Assembly (NCBI GenBank): GCA_913031285.1
Contig: CAJWEI010000001.1
Span: 1-64,000 of the forward strand
DNA: 64,000 nucleotides
Source of the DNA: an uncultured Alphaproteobacteria bacterium
Lineage (GTDB): Bacteria; Pseudomonadota; Alphaproteobacteria; Rhodobacterales; Rhodobacteraceae
Reading direction: 5' to 3'
Position 1 is the stretch's first letter. Each line of letters opens with the position of its first letter. The translations under genes were made by a program, and so were the position numbers. Positions 2,190 to 13,857 of the stretch are shown here, in pieces. The notes below the pieces were generated by a model. It was not told the DNA's origin, ran no database searches, and worked only from the letters and a program-made list of their open reading frames with translations.

Positions 2190-3667
2190 TGTTAGTTCAG
2201 GATCATGATCGCGCGGGTGGATATTGGGGCGCTATTTATGCATTTTGCGCTGTAAAAGGCCTGCAATGTGTCATTGATGGACCCGTAGGGTGTGAAAATC
2301 TGCCAGTAACGTCGGTGCTGCACTATACGGACGCTTTACCTCCTCATGAATTGCCGATTGTAGTGACGGGCCTTGCTGAAGAAGAATTGGGCCGTGAGGG
2401 AACCGAGGGCGCGATGCGACGTGCCTGGGGAACCCTTGACCCAGCTCTTCCTGCTGTTGTTGTCACCGGATCAATAGCTGAAATGATTGGTGGTGGTGTG
2501 ACGCCACAAGGGACAAACATCCAACGCTTTCTGCCGCGAACTATTGATGAAGACCAATGGGAAGCTGCGGATCGCGCAATGACTTGGATTTTTACTGAAT
2601 TTGGTATGACCAAAGGACGTATGCCGCCTGAGAAAAAACGCGCTGAAGACGCTAAGCCAAGGGTTAATATACTTGGGCCAATGTACGGCACTTTTAATAT
2701 GCCAAGTGATTTGGCTGAAATTCGCAGGTTGGTAGAAGGTATAGGTGCAGACGTTAATATGGTCATGCCACTTGGTGCCCATATTGCAGAAATGCGTAAT
2801 TTAGTGAATGCTGATGTCAACATTTGCATGTACCGCGAATTTGGTCGCGGGCTGTGTGAAGTACTGGACAAGCCATATTTGCAGGCGCCAATTGGCATCG
2901 ATAGTACGACAAAGTTCCTGCGTATGCTGGGTAATATGTTGGGGCTGGACCCTGAATCCTTTATCGAGCGCGAAAAACACTCGACCATTAAGCCAGTTTG
3001 GGATCTATGGCGCTCAGTTACACAAGATTTTTTTGCAACAGCTGGTTTTGGGATTGTAGCTAATGAAACTTATGCCCGAGGCATTCGGAACTATTTGGAA
3101 AGTGATCTAGGTTTTCCTTGTGCATTTGCGGTTGCCAGGTCGCGCGGAAGTAAGACTAATAATAATGAAGTGCGCGCGCTAATGGCGCAGAAACGCCCAC
3201 TTATTGTTATGGGTAGTATTAATGAAAAGATGTATTTAGCTGAGTTAAAGGGTGGGCATGGACCCAGTCCAGCATTTATTCCAGCCTCATTTCCGGGCGC
3301 GGCTATCCGGCGCGCAACAGGAACGCCCATGATGGGATATGCTGGGGCGACATATCTGTTGCAAGAGGTTTGTAATGGATTGTTTGAGGCTCTCTTCCAT
3401 ATTCTTCCATTGGGAACAGACATGGACTCTGCGGACGCTACTCCAACAACTCTCAAACGGGATTTCCCTTGGGATGCGGATGCGCAGTGTGCATTAGATA
3501 GGATCGTCGCACAGCATCCAGTTCTCACAAGAATATCCGCAGCCAAAAACTTGCGCGATGCTGCTGAAAAATCGGCACTTTCGCAGGGAGCTGAGCGGGT
3601 TTTAATTGAAACGGTTTTGGCACTTGACCCTGGTGGGTCGCAAAAAATTAAGGAGGAGCACAAATGA
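2189..3667 (+). CDS. bchZ: Chlorophyllide a reductase subunit Z
   Basis: Partner of BchY in the catalytic component of chlorophyllide a reductase. The 492-residue protein has the BchZ N-terminal signature with C20, C27 and C35 ([13 protein letters not shown]) followed by [18 protein letters not shown], and a long substrate-binding region. The start overlaps the bchY stop by one base; the 3' end overlaps the pufQ start as ATGA. A strong ribosome-binding site (AAGGAGGAG) inside the end of bchZ serves pufQ. The overlaps tie pigment synthesis to the puf genes in one transcript. Confidence 0.96.
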
Positions 3668-3885
3668 CAGACGTTGCTTCAAATACCCCCAAATCCCGCA
3701 CTTCAAGTAAGCGGAGTATGGAATTCACATTTTATTTCAGCATCATATTCGTACTGGCAATTCCCTTTGCTACCGTATTCTGGGTGTTGGACGTAGTTCG
3801 CAAGCAAACCCTGATGCTGCACGGTCCACTGGCGCGTGCATGGGCAGAAGCAGATAGAGTTACGCCACTAATTTTCTCAGCCTGA
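3664..3885 (+). CDS. pufQ: PufQ, bacteriochlorophyll synthesis/assembly factor
   Basis: A 73-residue protein with one membrane segment at about residues 22-44 and the C-terminal pattern [15 protein letters not shown] characteristic of PufQ. In Rhodobacter, PufQ is needed for normal bacteriochlorophyll synthesis and has been proposed to carry pigment intermediates; its exact role is not settled. It starts inside bchZ (ATGA overlap) with a strong upstream AAGGAGGAG. Its position between bchZ and pufB matches Rhodobacter capsulatus. Identification rests on the C-terminal signature, length and position. Confidence 0.9.
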
Positions 3886-4012: not shown

Positions 4013-4180
4013 ATGGCTGATAGAAGCGACCTATCTTTTACAGGTCTTACAGACGAACAAGCACAGGAACTGCACTCGGTTTATATGAGCGGCTTATGGC
4101 TATTTTCCATAGCATGCATAATCGCACATATTGCCACGTACATGGTTCTGCCTTGGTTCAGCTTTGCAGGAGGATCATAG
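4013..4180 (+). CDS. pufB: Light-harvesting 1 beta polypeptide
   Basis: A 55-residue LH1 beta chain. The N-terminal segment [21 protein letters not shown] is the family hallmark. One membrane helix covers about residues 25-47, with H39 as the expected bacteriochlorophyll ligand, and the chain ends LPWF then a short tail. The open frame extends upstream to 3956, but the ATG at 4013 is preceded by GGAAGG and gives the conserved N-terminus, so it is the real start. pufA follows after 3 bases. Confidence 0.96.
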
Positions 4181-4183
4181 AAA

Positions 4184-4345
4184 ATGGCTAATTTTTATAA
4201 GATCTGGCTGGTTTTCGACCCGCGCCGCGTTTTCGTGGTGCAGGGAGTTTTCCTCTTTTTGCTGGCAGCAATGATTCACCTTGTTCTGCTTAGCACTGAT
4301 GGCTTTAATTGGTTTGAAATGGCAGCTACCGCAAACGGCGGCTAA
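4184..4345 (+). CDS. pufA: Light-harvesting 1 alpha polypeptide
   Basis: A 53-residue LH1 alpha chain. It starts [20 protein letters not shown], the conserved alpha N-terminus, followed by one membrane helix with H32 as the expected bacteriochlorophyll ligand ([11 protein letters not shown]). The gene is short and easily missed by length-filtered gene calling. The ribosome-binding site GCAGGAGGATC lies in the end of pufB. With PufB it forms the repeating unit of the LH1 ring around the reaction centre. Confidence 0.96.
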
Positions 4346-4474: not shown

Positions 4475-5323
4475 ATGGCGTTGTTAAGTTTTGAAAGGAA
4501 GTATCGTGTCCGTGGGGGGACATTGATCGGTGGTGATCTATTTGATTTCTGGATAGGACCATTTTATGTTGGTTTTTTCGGGGTCACCACTGCATTTTTT
4601 GCCCTTCTTGGTACTGCTTTGATTTTTTATGGAGCAGCAATAGGCGATACTTGGAATCCTTTTCTTATATCGATCGATCCACCCGAACTTGAAATCGGGT
4701 TGGGCATGGCACCGCTTGCCAAAGGCGGACTTTGGCAATTGATAACAATGTGTGCAGCAGTCGCATTTATTAGTTGGGCGTTGCGAGAGGTGGAGATTGC
4801 ACGAAAACTGGGCATGGGTCTGCATGTGCCGTTTGCATTTGGAGTTGCCATTCTTGCCTATATAACCCTTGTTGTGGTTCGGCCTGTTCTCATGGGTGCG
4901 TGGGGTCACGGTTTTCCCTACGGAATTTTCAGCCACTTAGATTGGGTAAACAACGTGGGATATGCCTACGGAAATTTCCACTACAACCCGGCTCATATGA
5001 TTGCGGTGAGTTTCTTTTTCACCACTTGTTTGGCTTTGGCTCTGCATGGATCGCTGATCCTTTCAGCAGCTAATCCTGAAAAAGGCGAAACCATGCGCAC
5101 ACCAGAACATGAGGATACATTCTTTAGAGATTTGATTGGCTATTCAATAGGTCCACTAGGTATTCATCGTCTGGGATTGTTTTTAGCACTTAATGCGGGA
5201 TTTTGGTCCGCAGTATGTATCGTAGTCTCAGGCACTGTCTGGTTCGATGCATGGGCAGACTGGTGGTACTGGTATGTCGATCTGCCCTTCTGGGCTGACT
5301 TGGAAGGAGGAGTCAATGGCTGA
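4475..5323 (+). CDS. pufL: Photosynthetic reaction centre L subunit
   Basis: The 282-residue L subunit of the type-2 (quinone) reaction centre, the usual length. It starts [20 protein letters not shown], and GGAGA lies just before the ATG at 4475; upstream in-frame ATGs are not conserved sequence. Conserved pigment and iron histidines are visible in [23 protein letters not shown] and GIHRLG. Five membrane helices are expected. The last 8 bases overlap the start of pufM, coupling the two subunits. Confidence 0.97.
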
Positions 5324-6239
5324 GTATCAAAATATATTTACCCAAGTTCAAATCCAAGGTCCACCTGAAATGGGAATGGTCGAAGATGTAGACTTAGGCG
5401 AAAGATCAAAATCAGCGGGCTTTTCATCTCTCTTAGGATGGTTTGGGAATGCCCAACTTGGCCCCTTCTATTTAGGTGGTCTCGGGGTTGCGTCGCTTGG
5501 TGCTGGGCTTATTTGGTTTGTTATGGTTGGGGCTAGCTTTTGGGCTCAGGCAGGATATAGCCCAGGGGTTTTCATGCGAGATCTATTCTATTTTTCACTT
5601 GAGCCGCCCTCACCTGGAAACGGTCTTAGTATTCCATCCCTTAAAGATGGTGGAATGTGGTTTATTTCAAGTTTCTTCCTTCTGATTGCTGTGATGGCAT
5701 GGTGGGCACGCACGTATGTGCTAGCACAGCAGCTGAAAATGGGTAAGCATGTGTTTTATGCCTTTGGGGCCGCGATCTGGTTGTTTCTTGTATTGGGCCT
5801 TTTTCGTCCAGTGCTTATGGGAAGCTGGTCGGAGGCTGTTCCTTACGGAATATTCTCGCACCTAGACTGGACTATGAGCTTCTCTGTAACTTATGGAAAC
5901 CTGTTCTATTGCCCTTTCCACGCTCTTTCTATCGTATTTTTATATGGCTCTGCTCTATTATTTGCGATGCATGGTGCAACCATACTTGCAGTGTCAAGGT
6001 TTGGCGGTGATCGCGAACTTGAGCAGATTGCGGATCGAGGTACGGCTTCGGAACGTGCGGCGCTCTTTTGGCGGTGGACCATGGGCTTTAATGCCACGAT
6101 GGAAGGTATCCACCGTTGGGCTTGGTGGTTCGCAATTCTAACTCCGATCACTGGCGGTATCGGTATCCTTTTGACCGGCACAGTTGTCGACAACTGGTAC
6201 GTCTGGGCACAGGTGCACGGTTTTGCGCCGCTAGATTAA
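5316..6239 (+). CDS. pufM: Photosynthetic reaction centre M subunit
   Basis: The 307-residue M subunit, the usual length, starting [13 protein letters not shown] at an ATG preceded by TTGGAAGGAGG. Conserved elements include [30 protein letters not shown] and [15 protein letters not shown], which hold bacteriochlorophyll and non-haem iron ligands. It pairs with PufL to bind the special pair and quinones. The gene overlaps pufL by 8 bases. No pufC (tetrahaem cytochrome) follows; the next gene is pufX-like. Confidence 0.97.
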
Positions 6240-6253
6240 AGGGAGAATATAAA

Positions 6254-6496
6254 ATGAGTTCGAAAAGAAAGATATTTGACGGAGACTTTTCCCCAGAGCG
6301 GATAAGAGCTGAAGGTTTTGGCAACATGTTTGCCGGTGCTTTGTTTGGAGGGGTAATAGTTGGAGGGGTTGGTGCTTTTATTGCGGTTCTGATGGTAGTT
6401 TCAAGCTGGTTGCCACCAGAGTCAAAAGAAGCAGACGATCCTACGCCAGATTCATTCTCGGCATATGTGCTGCCGTACGATGAGACACAAGTTTAA
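6254..6496 (+). CDS. pufX: PufX-like core-complex protein
   Basis: An 80-residue protein 14 bases after pufM with a GGGAG ribosome-binding site. It has a charged N-terminus (MSSKRKIFDGDF), one glycine-rich membrane segment at about residues 22-52 containing FGGVIVGGVGAF, then WLPPES and an acidic tail. Rhodobacter PufX is a single-helix protein of about 80 residues encoded at this exact position; it opens or gates the LH1 ring for quinone exchange and promotes core dimers in some species. PufX sequences diverge fast, so the call relies on position, size, topology and the helix followed by a LP motif. Dimerisation cannot be judged. Confidence 0.75.
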   Translation: MSSKRKIFDGDFSPERIRAEGFGNMFAGALFGGVIVGGVGAFIAVLMVVSSWLPPESKEADDPTPDSFSAYVLPYDETQV

Positions 6497-6673
6497 CTTT
6501 ACGTCTCAAAGAGTATCAGAGTGGAGCAGGACTTCCCTGTACCGCTCTGAGCCAGATTTGGCCCATTTTCCCGTGGGTCAAATACGGGGTTTCTGCACCC
6601 CGGTTCCCTTCCTGTTGGCTACAGGAAACTTGCGCCACGTTCAGATTTTCTGAGCGTGGCGTTTATAATTTTT
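6481..6673 (+). terminator. Array of hairpins after pufX, ending in a terminator-like stem before dxs
   Basis: Five inverted repeats occur in about 190 bases: TGAGAC/GTCTCA over the pufX stop (6481-6508); TCAGAG/CTCTGA with an extended imperfect stem (6516-6550); CGGGGT/ACCCCG (6585-6602); TTCCTGT/ACAGGAA (6609-6627); and CGCCACG/CGTGGCG with a longer imperfect stem (6633-6661) followed by a T-rich run to 6673. The last resembles a rho-independent terminator or attenuator just upstream of the dxs start. The array would separate puf and dxs expression and protect the puf 3' end; this role is inferred. Confidence 0.65.
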
Positions 6674-6685
6674 CAGGAGTGAGTG

Positions 6686-8605
6686 ATGTACGAACGTGAA
6701 ACTTCAATTTTAGACCATATCGCTGGACCTTCTGACATGAAACAACTTTCTGATGCCGAGCTGACTTTACTTGCCAACGAGTTGCGGTCTGAGGTAATTT
6801 CGGCTGTTTCTGAGACTGGAGGTCATCTCGGATCGTCGCTCGGGGTTGTGGAAATTACGGTAGCTCTTCACGCAGTGTTTAATACGCCGCTGGATAAAAT
6901 CATCTGGGATGTTGGACACCAATGCTACCCACATAAAATTTTAACTGGTCGCCGCGAACGTATCCGGACTTTGAGACAAAAAGACGGATTGAGCGGTTTT
7001 ACCAAACGCAGTGAGAGTGAATTTGACCCCTTTGGTGCCGCGCATAGTTCCACTTCGATTTCAGCTGCATTAGGATTTAGCGTTGGTCGAGATATGGGTC
7101 AACCCTCCGGCGATGCCATTGCAGTCATTGGTGATGGATCCATCAGTGCCGGCATGGCTTATGAAGCTCTGAATAATGCCGGTGCAGAGAATAGGCGTTT
7201 GATTGTCGTTTTAAATGATAACGAAATGTCGATTGCGCCACCAGTTGGCGCAATGTCGTCATATTTGTCCGGTCTTTACGCAAATGAGCCGCTAGCTAAA
7301 ATCAAATCGCTTGCTGAAGGTTTTGAAGCCGCCTTACCCTCGCCGTTGCGCGACGGAGCCAAGCGCGCGAGGCAACTCGTGACTGGGTTGCACGGCTCGG
7401 GCACACTTTTTGAAGAGCTTGGTTTTGAATATGTTGGGCCGATCGATGGTCATGATATGTCTCAGTTGTTACCCGTTCTGCGCGCAGCACGGGCCCGGGC
7501 GACTGGCCCGGTCTTGATCCATGCTTGTACAGTAAAAGGCAAAGGCTATGCGCCAGCTGAAAATTCAGCTGATAAATATCATGGAGTATCAAAGTTTGAT
7601 ATTGCAACTGGAACCCAGGCTAAATCAAAGCCAAACGCTCCTAGTTATACGAATGTCTTTGGTGATACGCTGACTGACGAGGCCTCAAGAGATCCTAAAA
7701 TAGTCGGCGTAACAGCTGCAATGCCGTCGGGGACTGGTCTGAATATCATGGCTAAAAAGTTTCCTGGCCGCGTGTTTGATGTTGGTATCGCTGAACAGCA
7801 TGGTGTTACCTTCGCTGCTGGTATGGCCGCAAGTGGGCTAAAGCCGTTTTGTGCAATCTATTCTACTTTCTTGCAACGGGGCTATGATCAAATAGTCCAT
7901 GATGTTGCTTTGCAAGGATTACCTGTCAGGTTTGCAATTGATCGCGCCGGATTGGTTGGGGCTGATGGTGCTACGCATGCAGGTTCTTTTGATGTTGCTT
8001 ATCTTGCGAATTTGCCGGGATTTACTGTTATGGCCGCTGGGGATGAAGCGGAGCTTATGCATATGGTTGCGACGGCTGCCGATTATGACGATGGACCAAT
8101 TTCATTCCGTTTCCCGAGGGGTAACGGTACTGGAGTAACCCTTCCTGAGCGCGGTGAAATTCTTGAGATTGGCAAGGGGCGTATCGTGGCAGAGGGGACG
8201 GATGTCGCAATTTTATCCTTTGGAGCGCATTTGTTCGAAGTTGAACAGGCGGCGATGCTACTTGCCAAAAGTGGAGTTAGTGTCACGATTGCCGATGCTC
8301 GGTTTGCGAAACCTTTGGATACTGATTTAATCCTACAGTTAGCTCAAAACCACGAAGCGCTTGTAACAGTTGAACAGGGCAGTGTCGGTGGCTTTGGCGC
8401 GATGGTCTTACATCATCTTGCGGCGACTGGACAGTTAGATAATGGACTCAAAATTCGTACATTGACCTTGCCAGATGTATTTATTGACCATGGATCACCT
8501 GCAGAAATGTATCAGGCTGCTGGGCTTACATCCCTTGACATTCAGCGTACAATATTAAACATCATTCGTCCCGAGCACAATGTTATCCCGCTTTCAAAAG
8601 CATAA
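6686..8605 (+). CDS. dxs: 1-deoxy-D-xylulose-5-phosphate synthase
   Basis: Condenses pyruvate and glyceraldehyde 3-phosphate to DXP, the first step of the MEP isoprenoid pathway that supplies phytyl, carotenoid and quinone side chains. The 639-residue protein shows the thiamine-diphosphate motif ([20 protein letters not shown]), the N-terminal [12 protein letters not shown] region and the transketolase central motif ([15 protein letters not shown]). A GTG lies at 6683, but the ATG at 6686 has better spacing from AGGAG. dxs next to puf is the Rhodobacter capsulatus arrangement; the intervening terminator-like stem suggests partly separate control. Confidence 0.96.
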
Positions 8606-8655: not shown

Positions 8656-9138
8656 TCAGAAATGAGATTTAAATTCTTTTACAACTTGCCGGTATACATC
8701 TTTTTTGAATTTTACTATGTTTGCCTCAAGTTCACTGACAGCCACCCATTTCCACGCTGCAAATTCTGGGTGCGAAGTTGTGATATTGATGTGTTTATCG
8801 GAACCGCCAAACCGCATTAGGAACCATTTCTGTTTTTGGCCGCGATAGCGCCCTTTCCAAAGTTTAGGAATAAGCTCAACCGGTAAGTCATAAGTGATCC
8901 AATCTTTAGAAACCGCTTCGATTTGCGCCAAACTCTTGACAACGCCGGTCTCTTCTTCCAATTCACGAAAGGCGGCGTCTTCTGCGTGCTCTCCTAAGTC
9001 GATACCTCCCTGTGGCATTTGCCATGCATCTTGATGATTATCTAGACGCTGGCCGACAAAAACCATATTCTGATCGTTAAGGAGCATAATCCCGACGTTT
9101 TCCCGATAAGGTAATTTTTCCAGATCTAGCGGGGTCAT
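8656..9138 (-). CDS. rppH: RNA pyrophosphohydrolase (NUDIX)
   Basis: Removes pyrophosphate from 5'-triphosphate RNA and so starts 5'-end-dependent mRNA decay. The 160-residue protein begins MTPLDLEKLPYRENVGIML, typical for RppH, and carries the NUDIX box beginning GGIDLGEHAEDAAFRELEEE. Tryptophan-rich C-terminal features (KWFLMRF, AAWKWV) also fit. A GTG four codons upstream (9150) is possible; the ATG at 9138 gives the conserved start and sits about 11 bases from AAAGG. It is the last gene of the leftward block that includes ctpA. Confidence 0.9.
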   Translation of the reverse strand: MTPLDLEKLPYRENVGIMLLNDQNMVFVGQRLDNHQDAWQMPQGGIDLGEHAEDAAFRELEEETGVVKSLAQIEAVSKDWITYDLPVELIPKLWKGRYRGQKQKWFLMRFGGSDKHINITTSHPEFAAWKWVAVSELEANIVKFKKDVYRQVVKEFKSHF

Positions 9139-9293
9139 TGTGTTCTTCACCTTTGATTTTCTAGCGCATTTTTATTTTTGCTCATCTAGGCTTTTACGGA
9201 CTTCTAATATAATCCTGAGAGGCCGGTAAAAGCTTATCTCAGATTGGCTTTCAGCATACTTTAAGGTGGGAGAACTTTATTGTGATCAACACC

Positions 9294-10637
9294 TTAGTTA
9301 CTAGCTGACAGAACACGAAGTCCCTTAAGAAGGTCGATAGCATAAGCCAATTGGTAATCGTTCTCGCGCAGTTCAGCCGATTTTATGGCAGTTTCTCGAT
9401 CTAATTCGATCTGTTGGCGCTCATCTTCTGTCAGGCTATCGTTATCAAGGCTTCCTCTGAGATCTGCTTCGTTGCGTCTTGATCTCGCAATATCATCTTC
9501 TTTCTCCTCATCCTTGGGGGAAGTCCTTGGTTGTTCCACCAAGATATCCGGTGTTACGCCAAGAGCTTGAATGGAGCGACCGGATGGCGTGTAATATCGC
9601 GCCGTTGTTAGTCTCATCGCAGCACTGTCACGTAGTGGCATAACTGTTTGCACTGAGCCTTTGCCGAAACTTTTGGTTCCCACAACTACAGCGCGTTGAT
9701 GATCCTGTAATGCTCCTGCAACAATTTCAGAGGCTGACGCAGAGCCACCATTAATCAAGACCACGATAGACTTACCCTGAGCAAGGTCGTCTGGCGATGC
9801 ATTATACCGATCGCCATCCTGAGGGTCTCGGCCTCTAGTCGAAACAATTTCACCCTTTTCCAAAAATGCATCTGAAACCTTGATAGCCTGTGATAACAAT
9901 CCACCGGGGTTATTGCGAAGATCCAAAACAAACCCATCAATGTTTTCTATGCCACCAGCCTCCTCTAATTGTTTTGCAATTCCTTCGGACAGGTTGTCAT
10001 AAGTTTGATCGTTAAAGGTTGTTACCCTTACAACGACGCTTTTGCCTTCAGTACGCAATCTGACAGCTTTTAACTTGATCGTATCTCTGATGATGGTGAC
10101 GTCAAAGGGCTCATCCTCGCCTTCACGAACAACTGTAATCACGATTTCTGATCCAACGGGGCCTCGCATCAAGTCGACGGCCTCACTAAGTGTGAGACCA
10201 AGAACAGTGTCCCCATCAACATGAGTTATGAAGTCACCTGCTTCTATGCCTGCCTGATCGGCCGGAGTATCATCCATTGGTGAGACAACTTTTACAAAGC
10301 CGTCTTGCTGTGTAACTTCAATCCCAAGCCCGCCAAATTCGCCGCGGGTTTGAAAGCGCATCTCTTTTGCTGCGTCAGGGGATAGATAGCTCGAGTGTGG
10401 GTCAAGTGAAGTTAGCATACCATTAATGGCGGCTTCTATTAGATCAGCTTCATCGACTTCTTCGACATATTGCAACCGAATGCGTTCAAAAATATCCCCA
10501 AACAAATCAAGTTGTTCATAAATATTGGCCTTTTCCTCAGACGTCTGAGCAAGAACAGGGCCCGCAATTTGAATGGCACTTATGGCACCTAAACAACAGC
10601 CAATAATTATGGCTAGAAACAATTTTTTCATCAACAT
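9294..10637 (-). CDS. ctpA: Carboxy-terminal processing protease (S41 family)
   Basis: A periplasmic serine protease with signal peptide (residues 1 to about 30), a PDZ domain at about 95-175 and an S41 catalytic domain. The likely Ser-Lys dyad is S301 (in GGSASASEIVAG) and K326 (in GTKSFGKGSVQ), with the 25-residue spacing usual for the family. Length of about 447 is normal. Its start shares one base with the stop of the EnvC-like gene (TAATG); a second ATG at 10631 is better spaced from AAGGA and may be used. Pairing with an EnvC-like protein is common in alphaproteobacteria and points to envelope maintenance. Confidence 0.92.
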   Translation of the reverse strand: MLMKKLFLAIIIGCCLGAISAIQIAGPVLAQTSEEKANIYEQLDLFGDIFERIRLQYVEEVDEADLIEAAINGMLTSLDPHSSYLSPDAAKEMRFQTRGEFGGLGIEVTQQDGFVKVVSPMDDTPADQAGIEAGDFITHVDGDTVLGLTLSEAVDLMRGPVGSEIVITVVREGEDEPFDVTIIRDTIKLKAVRLRTEGKSVVVRVTTFNDQTYDNLSEGIAKQLEEAGGIENIDGFVLDLRNNPGGLLSQAIKVSDAFLEKGEIVSTRGRDPQDGDRYNASPDDLAQGKSIVVLINGGSASASEIVAGALQDHQRAVVVGTKSFGKGSVQTVMPLRDSAAMRLTTARYYTPSGRSIQALGVTPDILVEQPRTSPKDEEKEDDIARSRRNEADLRGSLDNDSLTEDERQQIELDRETAIKSAELRENDYQLAYAIDLLKGLRVLSASN

Positions 10638-11782
10638 TAGTCCTTTTTAACTTGGAACCAAAGGATTGGATCCTGCGGCGTCTCATTTTCTCTTATTTCT
10701 ATATAGAGCGTTTCTGGCCGGTAGGTACCACTTCTAGCGGCAGATTCCTTGAACATTTCACCGGCAGATGGCAGTTCGCCGCCCATAATCCCTACAGGGC
10801 TTCCTGCCGGTAAGACTTCGCCAATGTTTCCAAAGATTTGTGCCAAACCTGAAAATATGAATAAAATATCCCGTTGTGGTTCAATTATGGACACTAATCC
10901 GTAGTCCAACAATTCGCCCTTATACCTGATGGTAGCAGCTGTTGGCGTGCTGACAAGTGCTCCAGGTGCTGTTGCGACAATTATTCCGGGACGTACGACC
11001 CCGGCAGCATCTGCAGATTTAAACTCTCGTAGAACCCTGCCGTTAACGGGAAAATGCAATTTGCCCTTGCGATCGCGAATGTCCGGAAGCGATTCGGCAG
11101 TTTCGTTGATTGCGACAATAGAGAGACCTTTGATAAATGTTTCGAGCGTTTCTGCTGCGGCAATTAAGATAGCCGTTTTTGATTTATCTTCGATAAAGCG
11201 CTTGGGCAAATTTTTTCTATCGGCTATTGCCAAGGCAAGATTACTGCGAGCAGATTGTAGCTCGTTTAAACCGTTTTGAAGGATCGTGGTTGTATCTTTC
11301 TGGATATTCTGAAGCGTTTTGATATTTTCAAGTTGTTGTCGTATTTGGTTAATAGGGCGCTGCAATGTGGGAAGTATATGGCTCAATAGCATGCCGGCGC
11401 GGGCTGTGCTAAGTGGACCGTCCGGATGCATCAATTTAGCCGTCATTGGTTCATTGTCTATGCCGTGTAAAACACCGACGAGGCGACTTATGTCTTTCTC
11501 TTGCAAAGACAGGTTTGTTTTGAGGTCTGCCTGAGTGATTGCAATTTGGCGCATGCTAGACCGCAGTAACGCCAAAGCCTCTTCAAAGGCTTGAATAGTC
11601 CCAGCAAGCGCTTTGATGCGGTATTTTGCGCTTTTTGCAACCACCATTTCCGCTGTAGCCTCATCTAGATTTTTAGCCGCGGCTCGGGCAGTCTCTGCGA
11701 CATCTTCTTCCGCGAATAGTGGAACTGAAAGATAGCCTGAAAATAACACAAGGCAAAGGGATATGCATTGCAGTTTTTTCAT
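10637..11782 (-). CDS. EnvC-like murein hydrolase activator (degenerate LytM/M23 domain)
   Basis: A 381-residue secreted protein: signal peptide to about residue 24, a long coiled-coil region at about 30-220, then a C-terminal M23/LytM-type domain (GRVLREFKSADAAGVV...PGALVSTPTAATIRYKGELLDYG). The zinc-binding histidines of active M23 peptidases are not seen, which fits EnvC-type proteins that activate amidases at the septum rather than cut peptidoglycan. The gene overlaps gpmI upstream (ATGA) and ctpA downstream (TAATG), so the three are co-translated. Which amidase it would activate is not visible here. Confidence 0.8.
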   Translation of the reverse strand: MKKLQCISLCLVLFSGYLSVPLFAEEDVAETARAAAKNLDEATAEMVVAKSAKYRIKALAGTIQAFEEALALLRSSMRQIAITQADLKTNLSLQEKDISRLVGVLHGIDNEPMTAKLMHPDGPLSTARAGMLLSHILPTLQRPINQIRQQLENIKTLQNIQKDTTTILQNGLNELQSARSNLALAIADRKNLPKRFIEDKSKTAILIAAAETLETFIKGLSIVAINETAESLPDIRDRKGKLHFPVNGRVLREFKSADAAGVVRPGIIVATAPGALVSTPTAATIRYKGELLDYGLVSIIEPQRDILFIFSGLAQIFGNIGEVLPAGSPVGIMGGELPSAGEMFKESAARSGTYRPETLYIEIRENETPQDPILWFQVKKD

Positions 11783-13302
11783 GAACGTATTAGAGATAAT
11801 CCTGTCATCTCCATCGGTTTTTGGAGCCCCATTAATTCAAGCAAGGTTGGCGCGATGTCACAAAGTCTACCGCCGTCGATTAGTCTTTTACCTTCACCTG
11901 CATTTATGAGTGACACTGGCACTAGATTTAAGGTATGCGCAGTGTGCGGAGCTTGCGTATCTGGTTCGATCATAGTTTCACAATTTCCATGATCTGCAGT
12001 TAGAAGCATTTTGCCATTCACTTGTTTAAGGGCCCTTATTACTTCTCCCAACGCTTTGTCAATGGATTCACAGGCTTTGATCGCTGCCTGTAAGTTACCA
12101 GTATGCCCAACCATATCAGGATTTGCATAATTCACTATGATTAGGTCATATCCTTGTTGAAGAGCTATCAAAAACTGCTTTGTCACTTCTTTCGATGACA
12201 TCTCGGGCTGCATATCATAGGTTGCCACATTTGGTGACTTGGGCATTTTGCGATCCTCGCCAACCTCGGATGCCTCTTTGCCTCCATTAAAGAAAAAGGT
12301 CACATGCGGATATTTTTCAGTTTCAGCTAGTCGGAACTGTCGTTTATTCTTTTTAGCTACCCAGGCGCCCAACGTATTCACAATTTCTTCTTTGGGAAAG
12401 CATGTTGTCATAAACTGGTCATGCTTTTTGGAATAAGTTACCATACCCAAAATCGTAGACCATTCTGGACGGCCTGAGATGTTAAAGCTATCGAAACCCG
12501 AAAGTCCAATTGCTGCTAGAATTTCGCGCGCTCGGTCTGCACGAAAATTCAGGCAAAATACTCCGTCACCCTGCTTTGCTCCTGCATAATCTCCAATTGC
12601 CGTGGCGGGGATGAATTCATCGCTGAATGTTCGCGCATAGGCACCTTCGATTGCAATTTTAGCAGTCTTGGCCCGAACTTTTGATATGCCATTTATCATC
12701 GCCTCGAAGGCAGTTCTGACTCGTTCCCAGCGATTATCCCTATCCATCGCATAATACCGTCCACATACCGTTGCAATTCGCGCTGTTGCAGGTAGCGCTT
12801 CTTCTAACTGGGATAAATATGTTAAGGCAGAACTGGGTGCAACGTCCCGTCCATCCGTAATCGCGTGGATTTCTGTTGGAATATTCGCCTTTTCAAGAGC
12901 TTGCAAAACGGCTATCAGATGGGAGATATGGCTATGCACACCGCCATCTGAGATAAGTGAAATGAGATGTGCTACTCCGCCTACGGCTTCTAGCTTGGCG
13001 ATGAAACCTTTCAGTGCCGGGTTCTCAAAAAAGGATCCATTTTGGATGGCTAGGTCAATTTGACCCAAATCCATTGCAACAACCCGACCCGCGCCGATAT
13101 TTACATGGCCGACTTCAGAATTGCCCATTTGACCTTCTGGCAGACCTACATCTGGTCCGTGGGTTATTAACTGTGAGGATGGAAACTCGGCCATGATACG
13201 GTCTATATTGGGCGTCTCGGCTAAATAAGGCGCGTTACCAGCTCCTATGTCACTGTGACCCCAGCCATCTAGAATACAAAGAACGACCGGTTGCTGGTCC
13301 AT
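11779..13302 (-). CDS. gpmI: 2,3-bisphosphoglycerate-independent phosphoglycerate mutase
   Basis: Interconverts 3- and 2-phosphoglycerate using two metal ions. The 507-residue protein starts with the metal-binding LCILDGWG motif (D12) and has the catalytic serine S62 in GQMGNSEVGHVNIGAGR. Further alkaline-phosphatase-fold motifs include ITDGRDVAPSS, NFRADRAREI and a C-terminal TADHGNCE. Length is normal. A ribosome-binding site AAAGGA precedes the ATG, and the 3' end overlaps the EnvC-like gene by 4 bases. Confidence 0.95.
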   Translation of the reverse strand: MDQQPVVLCILDGWGHSDIGAGNAPYLAETPNIDRIMAEFPSSQLITHGPDVGLPEGQMGNSEVGHVNIGAGRVVAMDLGQIDLAIQNGSFFENPALKGFIAKLEAVGGVAHLISLISDGGVHSHISHLIAVLQALEKANIPTEIHAITDGRDVAPSSALTYLSQLEEALPATARIATVCGRYYAMDRDNRWERVRTAFEAMINGISKVRAKTAKIAIEGAYARTFSDEFIPATAIGDYAGAKQGDGVFCLNFRADRAREILAAIGLSGFDSFNISGRPEWSTILGMVTYSKKHDQFMTTCFPKEEIVNTLGAWVAKKNKRQFRLAETEKYPHVTFFFNGGKEASEVGEDRKMPKSPNVATYDMQPEMSSKEVTKQFLIALQQGYDLIIVNYANPDMVGHTGNLQAAIKACESIDKALGEVIRALKQVNGKMLLTADHGNCETMIEPDTQAPHTAHTLNLVPVSLINAGEGKRLIDGGRLCDIAPTLLELMGLQKPMEMTGLSLIRS

Positions 13303-13386
13303 TGTTAAATCCTTTTACCGTAACGATCTATTGCGATGTACATTTCAACGCAAGCTTTCAAAAGCCTAAATCAAATAATCAACTTT

Positions 13387-13857
13387 CTAAGTTCGATGGT
13401 AAGGCTTATGGGCGAGGATTGTAACAGCGCGATAAATTTGTTCGCATAGCATGACTCTAGCCAAGAGATGTGGCCAAACCATTTTGCCGAATGATAATTT
13501 AGTACAACTCTGCGATTTTAAAGATGCGTCAAGTCCATCTGCACCTCCGATTACAAAAGCTAGATCCTTTATGCCTTGATCCCGCAGAGTGGCAAAAAAT
13601 TTTGCGAACTCTGGTGATGTCATTTGTTCACCGCGTTCATCCAAAACGGTAAGATGGCAAACATGGGGTAATGAGCGCTGTAAGAGAAAAGCTTCTGCAG
13701 CCATTCCGGCATTCTTCTTATCTTCAACCGTAATGAGCGACAAAGGCCCAAGGCTCAAACCTCGCCCTAGTTTATCAAAGCGTGTTTTGTAGTCGTCAAT
13801 AAGTTGTTTTTCTGGACTCGACTTGAGCCGCCCGACAGCGCAAACAGAAACTCGCAT
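13387..13857 (-). CDS. rlmH: 23S rRNA pseudouridine-1915 N3-methyltransferase
   Basis: SPOUT-class methyltransferase acting on helix 69 of 23S rRNA in assembled ribosomes. The 156-residue protein shows the family motifs LDERGEQMTSPEFAKFF, FVIGGADGLD (SAM loop) and the C-terminal block SFGKMVWPHLLARVMLCEQ followed by IYRA and PYHR. The start lies 16 bases after the rsfS stop, and the rsfS-rlmH pair is widely conserved. No anomaly is seen. Confidence 0.95.
   Translation of the reverse strand: MRVSVCAVGRLKSSPEKQLIDDYKTRFDKLGRGLSLGPLSLITVEDKKNAGMAAEAFLLQRSLPHVCHLTVLDERGEQMTSPEFAKFFATLRDQGIKDLAFVIGGADGLDASLKSQSCTKLSFGKMVWPHLLARVMLCEQIYRAVTILAHKPYHRT

Follow-up and report, generated by a model that had tools for sequence, protein, structure and literature searches.

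In the pufX-type marine Rhodobacteraceae the puf operon is known in the order pufQBALM-X-dxs (PMC6052148, PMC6739100), and pufX, located after pufM and before dxs, is described as the replacement of pufC, the pufC type being held ancestral (PMC6052148). Dimerisation of the Rba. sphaeroides core is reported to depend on the binding of the lipid SQDG by Arg49 and Arg53, no role in PufX dimerisation is assigned there to the GxxxG motif, and no protein-Y (PufY) is reported outside Cereibacter (PMC11346425). Dimers have been described in Rba. blasticus and Rhodobaca bogoriensis without the SQDG-binding arginines and sqdB (PMC11346425, PMC11463270). In Rba. sphaeroides the puf 3' untranslated region also gives rise, upon cutting by RNase E, to the sRNA PcrX (PMC9438474, PMC8625941), whose effect is Hfq-dependent (PMC8625941, PMC9438474) and which destabilises the pufLMX mRNA, probably via pufX (PMC9438474).

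In the present study we have analysed a window, which is a stretch of 64,000 nucleotides from an uncultured member of the Rhodobacteraceae (contig CAJWEI010000001.1), with attention to a small ORF at the pufX site and to the RNA that follows it.

Results

The puf operon of the window

The genes are found in the order pufQ-B-A-L-M-X-dxs, and the features considered below are as follows.

3664..3885 (+): pufQ (Pfam PufQ, 84.7 bits)
4013..4180 (+): pufB, LH1 beta (Pfam LHC, 30.1 bits; NCBIfam pufB, 59 bits, just below its cut-off of 61)
4184..4345 (+): pufA, LH1 alpha (NCBIfam pufA, 75.4 bits, cut-off 35)
4475..5323 (+): pufL (Pfam Photo_RC, 325 bits)
5316..6239 (+): pufM (Pfam Photo_RC, 313 bits)
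6254..6496 (+): pufX, 80 amino acids (Pfam PF11511, 25.7 bits; leave-genus-out profile, 72.5 bits; AF2 helix 14-52)
6326..6412 (+): PufX transmembrane helix core, residues 25-53, MFAGALFGGVIVGGVGAFIAVLMVVSSWL (alignment of 72 PufX-position ORFs, residue-by-residue comparison)
6598..6676 (+): RNA element at the PcrX position, with leader GGUUCCCUU, invariant hairpin CCUGUUGGCUACAGG, terminator hairpin at 6632-6662 and U-rich tail (R1, 75.7 bits; fold z, covariation, terminator scan)
6683/6686..8605 (+): dxs (Pfam DXP_synthase_N, 375 bits)

The ORF runs from the ATG at 6254 to the stop at 6496 and encodes a protein beginning MSSKRKIFDGDF...FGGVIVGGVGAF...; both the peptide and the coordinates 6254-6496 are exactly those of the original prediction. 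A ribosome-binding-like AGGGAG at 6240-6245 precedes the ATG; the pufM stop is at 6239, 14 nt before this start, and the next gene in the 3' direction is dxs. Thus the ORF occupies the PufX site, immediately 3' of pufM and ahead of dxs, where pufC would otherwise stand. The search of the window's genome for pufC gave no match; it had no positive control of its own, the control being the same search over the family, positive in 52 of 295 genomes. The LH1 pair represents the only antenna genes found in that genome, so that LH2 was not detected there, and a comparison with plasmid records gave no match. The photosynthesis cluster ends after dxs, where a NUDIX hydrolase, an S41 peptidase and other genes occupy 8656-13857 on the minus strand, unlike the gene list given for D. 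shibae, in which idi-bchP follows dxs (PMC6052148).

Assignment of the ORF to PufX

The protein passes the Pfam PufX model (PF11511), the HMM check that had been called for, with 25.7 bits against a cut-off of 25, a margin of 0.7 bits; no NCBIfam model lies above its cut-off, and phmmer, run with the window protein alone against the solved structures, returned no solved PufX up to an E value of 10. We take the low Pfam score to reflect a narrow Pfam model, whose cut-off is passed in 66 of the 295 family genomes. At the 83 loci examined pufM is present in 81, and in 80 of them it is followed by an ORF of PufX size, the exception (L082) being an ORF of 374 amino acids that was excluded from the PufX set. 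The PufX-position ORFs pooled from several searches comprise 72 distinct sequences, from which a profile was made with 66, leaving out the five sequences of the window's genus and L080; the latter is likewise excluded from the counts over 66 given below.

This leave-genus-out profile gives the window protein 72.5 bits, and 64.1 bits after removal of five further near relatives. The highest scores among 1000 segment-preserving shuffles were 26.2 and 24.5 bits with the full and the reduced profile, respectively, and among 1000 whole-sequence shuffles 6.2 and 5.7 bits, while the best 8 rows of either profile search contain no ORF from the 2202 decoys. Identity to the window PufX falls from 98-74% in the genus to 55-40% in the next five relatives and to 19% in the Rba. 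sphaeroides PufX (L010), in keeping with the divergence that had been noted from the sequence. Among the 66 others G28 is invariant (66/66), and A29 (60/66), L53 (64/66) and P54 (64/66) are conserved, as are C-terminal PufX residues in the profile comparison. The family profile A1 retrieved from the PDB 11 distinct sequences, all of them PufX chains by name, except 8ygd, which is labelled dxs and was recognised by its likeness; as the Rba. sphaeroides PufX is part of A1, its own match is by construction. In 8ygd and 8ygl, chain X is a PufX-like chain that bears the molecule name 1-deoxy-D-xylulose-5-phosphate synthase, the product of the neighbouring gene.

At the level of genomes, pufX and pufC are nearly mutually exclusive, occurring together in just 2 of the 295 (G058 and G194). 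In the PufM tree, whose bootstrap is not fully settled and whose root is arbitrary, the window falls into a group of 10 rows with support of 100/99, which lies outside that of the pufC rows.

The AF2 model, made with 29 of the 72 sequences in the alignment, shows one helix at residues 14-52 (mean pLDDT 77.9, pTM 0.44). Ahead of the helix core there are five Lys/Arg and beyond it a single one, and the C-terminal charge is -6. A single transmembrane helix with a cytoplasmic N-terminus is thereby predicted, in agreement with PufX. Foldseek found no match for the model in the PDB, a result that carries little weight for a lone helix. The place, the length and the single-helix topology that had been attributed to the ORF are in this way upheld by operon position, profile scores and the AF2 helix. 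Taken as a whole, the best explanation, which we hold with high confidence, is that an uncultured marine lineage of the Rhodobacteraceae/Paracoccaceae has an RC-LH1 core of the PufX type, whose PufX subunit is the product of this ORF; this PufX is ordinary, fast-evolving and correctly named.

Helix glycines and the state of the core

The 29-residue helix core contains 6 glycines, versus 7 in the Rba. sphaeroides PufX. At least six are found in 14 of the 72 PufX, and the mean of the 66 others is 4.3. The idea of an unusually glycine-rich helix was rejected, 6 in 29 being inside the normal PufX range, and the adjective "glycine-rich" does not suit a helix with fewer glycines than that of Rba. 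sphaeroides. The GxxxG of the latter (G32 and G36, Met counted) corresponds to L30 and V34 in the window PufX. According to its title, Crouch et al. 2010 reportedly reached the conclusion that GxxxG has no role in dimerisation. Glycine motifs were accordingly rejected as an explanation of dimers, since GxxxG is reported to have no such role and the sphaeroides PufX is the richer in glycine. On the same grounds (7 glycines against 6, L30 and V34 at the GxxxG columns, and the reported lack of a role) the suggestion that glycine packing could inform how monomeric and dimeric cores differ is not supported.

The residues that bind SQDG in Rba. sphaeroides, Arg49 and Arg53, are absent from the window PufX, which has M47 and S51 at those columns (M/I/V and S in the genus); both arginines occur in 2 of the 66 other PufX. 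The LWVAF contact motif is missing as well. A clear sqdB was not found in the window's genome, which is 96% complete: the best score, 49.8 bits, is confined to the N-terminal part, against 325.7 bits for G051, a genome like that of Rba. sphaeroides; neither passes the curated cut-off of 575 bits. Of the 27 places with an epimerase domain, seven were inspected and correspond to five different proteins; none of these reaches the cut-off for UDP-sulfoquinovose synthase. Given the lack of the two arginines, of LWVAF and of a clear sqdB, the core would be either a monomer or a dimer unlike that of Rba. sphaeroides. A monomer seems the likeliest from these sequences, but we favour it weakly, as dimers occur in Rba. 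blasticus and Rhodobaca bogoriensis, which have neither these arginines nor sqdB.

A conserved RNA downstream of pufX

The RNA element lies between the pufX stop at 6496 and dxs, that is, in the puf 3' untranslated region. Fold z values are -5.2 for 6497-6640 and -4.6 for 6620-6690, and the 190 nt that follow the pufX stop reach -8.2. Between the stop and the element (6497-6597, plus strand) there are more stable hairpins, one of them of about 11 pairs (TTTGGCCCATTTTCCCGTGGGTCAAA) and largely kept in the genus.

The motif CTGYYGGCNNCAG is found within 320 nt of the stop at 53 of the 72 PufX-position loci, mostly inside GGTTCCCTTCCTGTTGGCNACAGG, and also at 4 of 9 pufC-type loci. Alignment A2 contains 52 of the 57 elements found (L001, L009, L025, L065 and L119 were omitted). 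In these 52 sequences four stem pairs of the first hairpin are invariant, and with no covariation their pairing is predicted from folding. In the terminator stem all 13 pairs show changes on both sides and 94.2% of cells pair, versus 39-52% when the pairing is slid by 1 to 3 columns. At four further loci (L007, L013, L016 and L018) a variant hairpin (TTGGCTACGGG) lies 3' of pufX with a different downstream stem and was missed by the pattern; in G123, G212 and G240 the element was missed by the covariance model too.

The covariance model R1 was built from the 52 aligned elements, 49 of pufX-type and 3 of pufC-type rows. In the 295 family genomes it gives 82 matches of at least 33 bits, every one of them (82/82) within 400 nt downstream of pufX or pufC on the same strand, 54 after pufX and 28 after pufC; as just 3 pufC-type rows entered R1, no fewer than 25 of the matches after pufC are independent of the model. 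In the 177 family genomes with neither pufX nor pufC the score never exceeds 30.7 bits. An associated match is lacking in 14 of the 68 genomes with pufX and in 21 of the 52 with pufC, and the R1-negative genomes include G011, G157 and G194, relatives in the PufM group of the window. In a class-wide sample of 385 genomes R1 reaches at most 33.2 bits outside the family (five genomes); the best of these matches, at L157, was rejected, having no CCTGTTGGC hairpin and looking like a chance hairpin. A scan of the puf region with Rfam gave two matches, both far below their gathering scores; at those scores Rfam has no such family.

Discussion

The element occupies the place from which PcrX derives, and in the Rba. 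sphaeroides-like genome G051 it is present at the same puf 3' place (R1, 75.7 bits). By its position it may be equated with PcrX, and the puf transcript of the window would probably end in the conserved hairpin and terminator RNA, where Rba. sphaeroides makes this sRNA. In a crude test the best pairing site of the leader lies in pufX at +40 to +110 in 7 of 53 genomes, versus 3 to 11 of 53 for shuffled leaders; pairing of the leader with pufM-pufX does not rise above that of shuffled leaders. The RNA element is probably older than pufX, as it is also present in operons of the pufC type, which is considered ancestral (PMC6052148). We therefore lean towards the proposal that the puf 3' RNA, PcrX in Rba. 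sphaeroides, is an old family-wide RNA, that it was present before pufX replaced pufC, so that its ancestral target would not be pufX, and that the invariant leader and hairpin perform the same function in phototrophs of the pufX and the pufC type.

The distribution after both pufX and pufC could also have arisen by transfer of whole operons between lineages, in which the element would have spread with them. Protection of the mRNA 3' end, with no trans-acting sRNA involved, is a possible role for the same structure. A simple conserved terminator does not explain the element, because the leader and hairpin upstream of it are unchanging. The element matters more than PufX itself: its hairpin core is unchanged in the 52 aligned sequences and all 82 strong matches (82/82) are at photosynthesis operons, a pattern suggesting that the synthesis of reaction centres is under a shared post-transcriptional control that is older than PufX, the reported PcrX target.

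As for the protein, of its glycine features the spacing alone is genus-specific in the sequences compared. G32, G33 and G37 are present in all five sequences of the genus versus 7, 12 and 4 of the 66 others, at least two GxxxG motifs are seen in 5/5 versus 2/66, and G33, G37 and G40 fall within 60 degrees on a helical wheel. This clustered and otherwise scarce pattern could be read as a new PufX-PufX or PufX-LH1 alpha surface, made by the extra spacing G28xxxG32 and G33xxxG37, which would give the genus a distinct dimeric or tightly gated core. We consider such a surface unlikely: the five sequences are closely related and the spacing may thus be one event, the total of helix glycines is ordinary, the GxxxG of Rba. 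sphaeroides is reported to have no role in joining opposing PufX (PMC11346425), and G37 is at the position of Phe39, which in the Rba. sphaeroides dimer is described as touching a neighbouring LH1 beta (PMC11463270). For the most part the helix glycines would simply be small residues that pack against LH1 alpha, RC-L or pigments; their spacing is specific to the genus, and glycine content is a poor guide to the oligomeric state of the core.

Least probable is the replacement of PufX by another single-helix accessory protein (of the PufW, protein-U/PufY or protein-Z type), an idea fed by the borderline Pfam score and the single-sequence search that matched no solved PufX, and opposed by the large margins of the leave-genus-out profile (72.5 bits), by the intermediate relatives of 40-55% identity that connect the protein to other PufX, by the near exclusion between PufX and PufC (both in 2/295) and by Pfam and NCBIfam, where no other family lies above cut-off. 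Among the families covered by Pfam and NCBIfam, these searches and the profile largely rule out a different single-helix family for the ORF, and the better match to such a family that would have spoken against the original prediction was not obtained in Pfam or NCBIfam.

With the ORF taken as PufX, its function can be outlined from the solved PufX structures. The helix would lie tilted at the end of the LH1 arc, the C-terminal stretch LPPESKEADDPTP would bind the periplasmic face of RC-L, and PufX would hold the LH1 ring open, thus permitting quinone exchange.

The window PufX adds an uncultured genus of marine bacteria to a known family whose sequences diverge strongly. It resembles the PufX of Rba. 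sphaeroides, veldkampii, capsulatus and blasticus in its place after pufM, its length and its one helix, as well as in the invariant G28, the LP junction and the acidic C-terminal stretch. From the Rba. sphaeroides protein, to which it is 19% identical, it differs by lacking Arg49/Arg53 and LWVAF and by its shifted glycines. With the marine pufX-type Rhodobacteraceae it shares the operon type, whereas the genus has its own N-terminus, MSS(K/Q)(R/K)xIFDGDFSPERI, and its own glycine spacing. Finally, the RNA element has in common with PcrX of Rba. sphaeroides its location in the puf 3' untranslated region, and differs from it in being found also 3' of pufC, in genomes without pufX.
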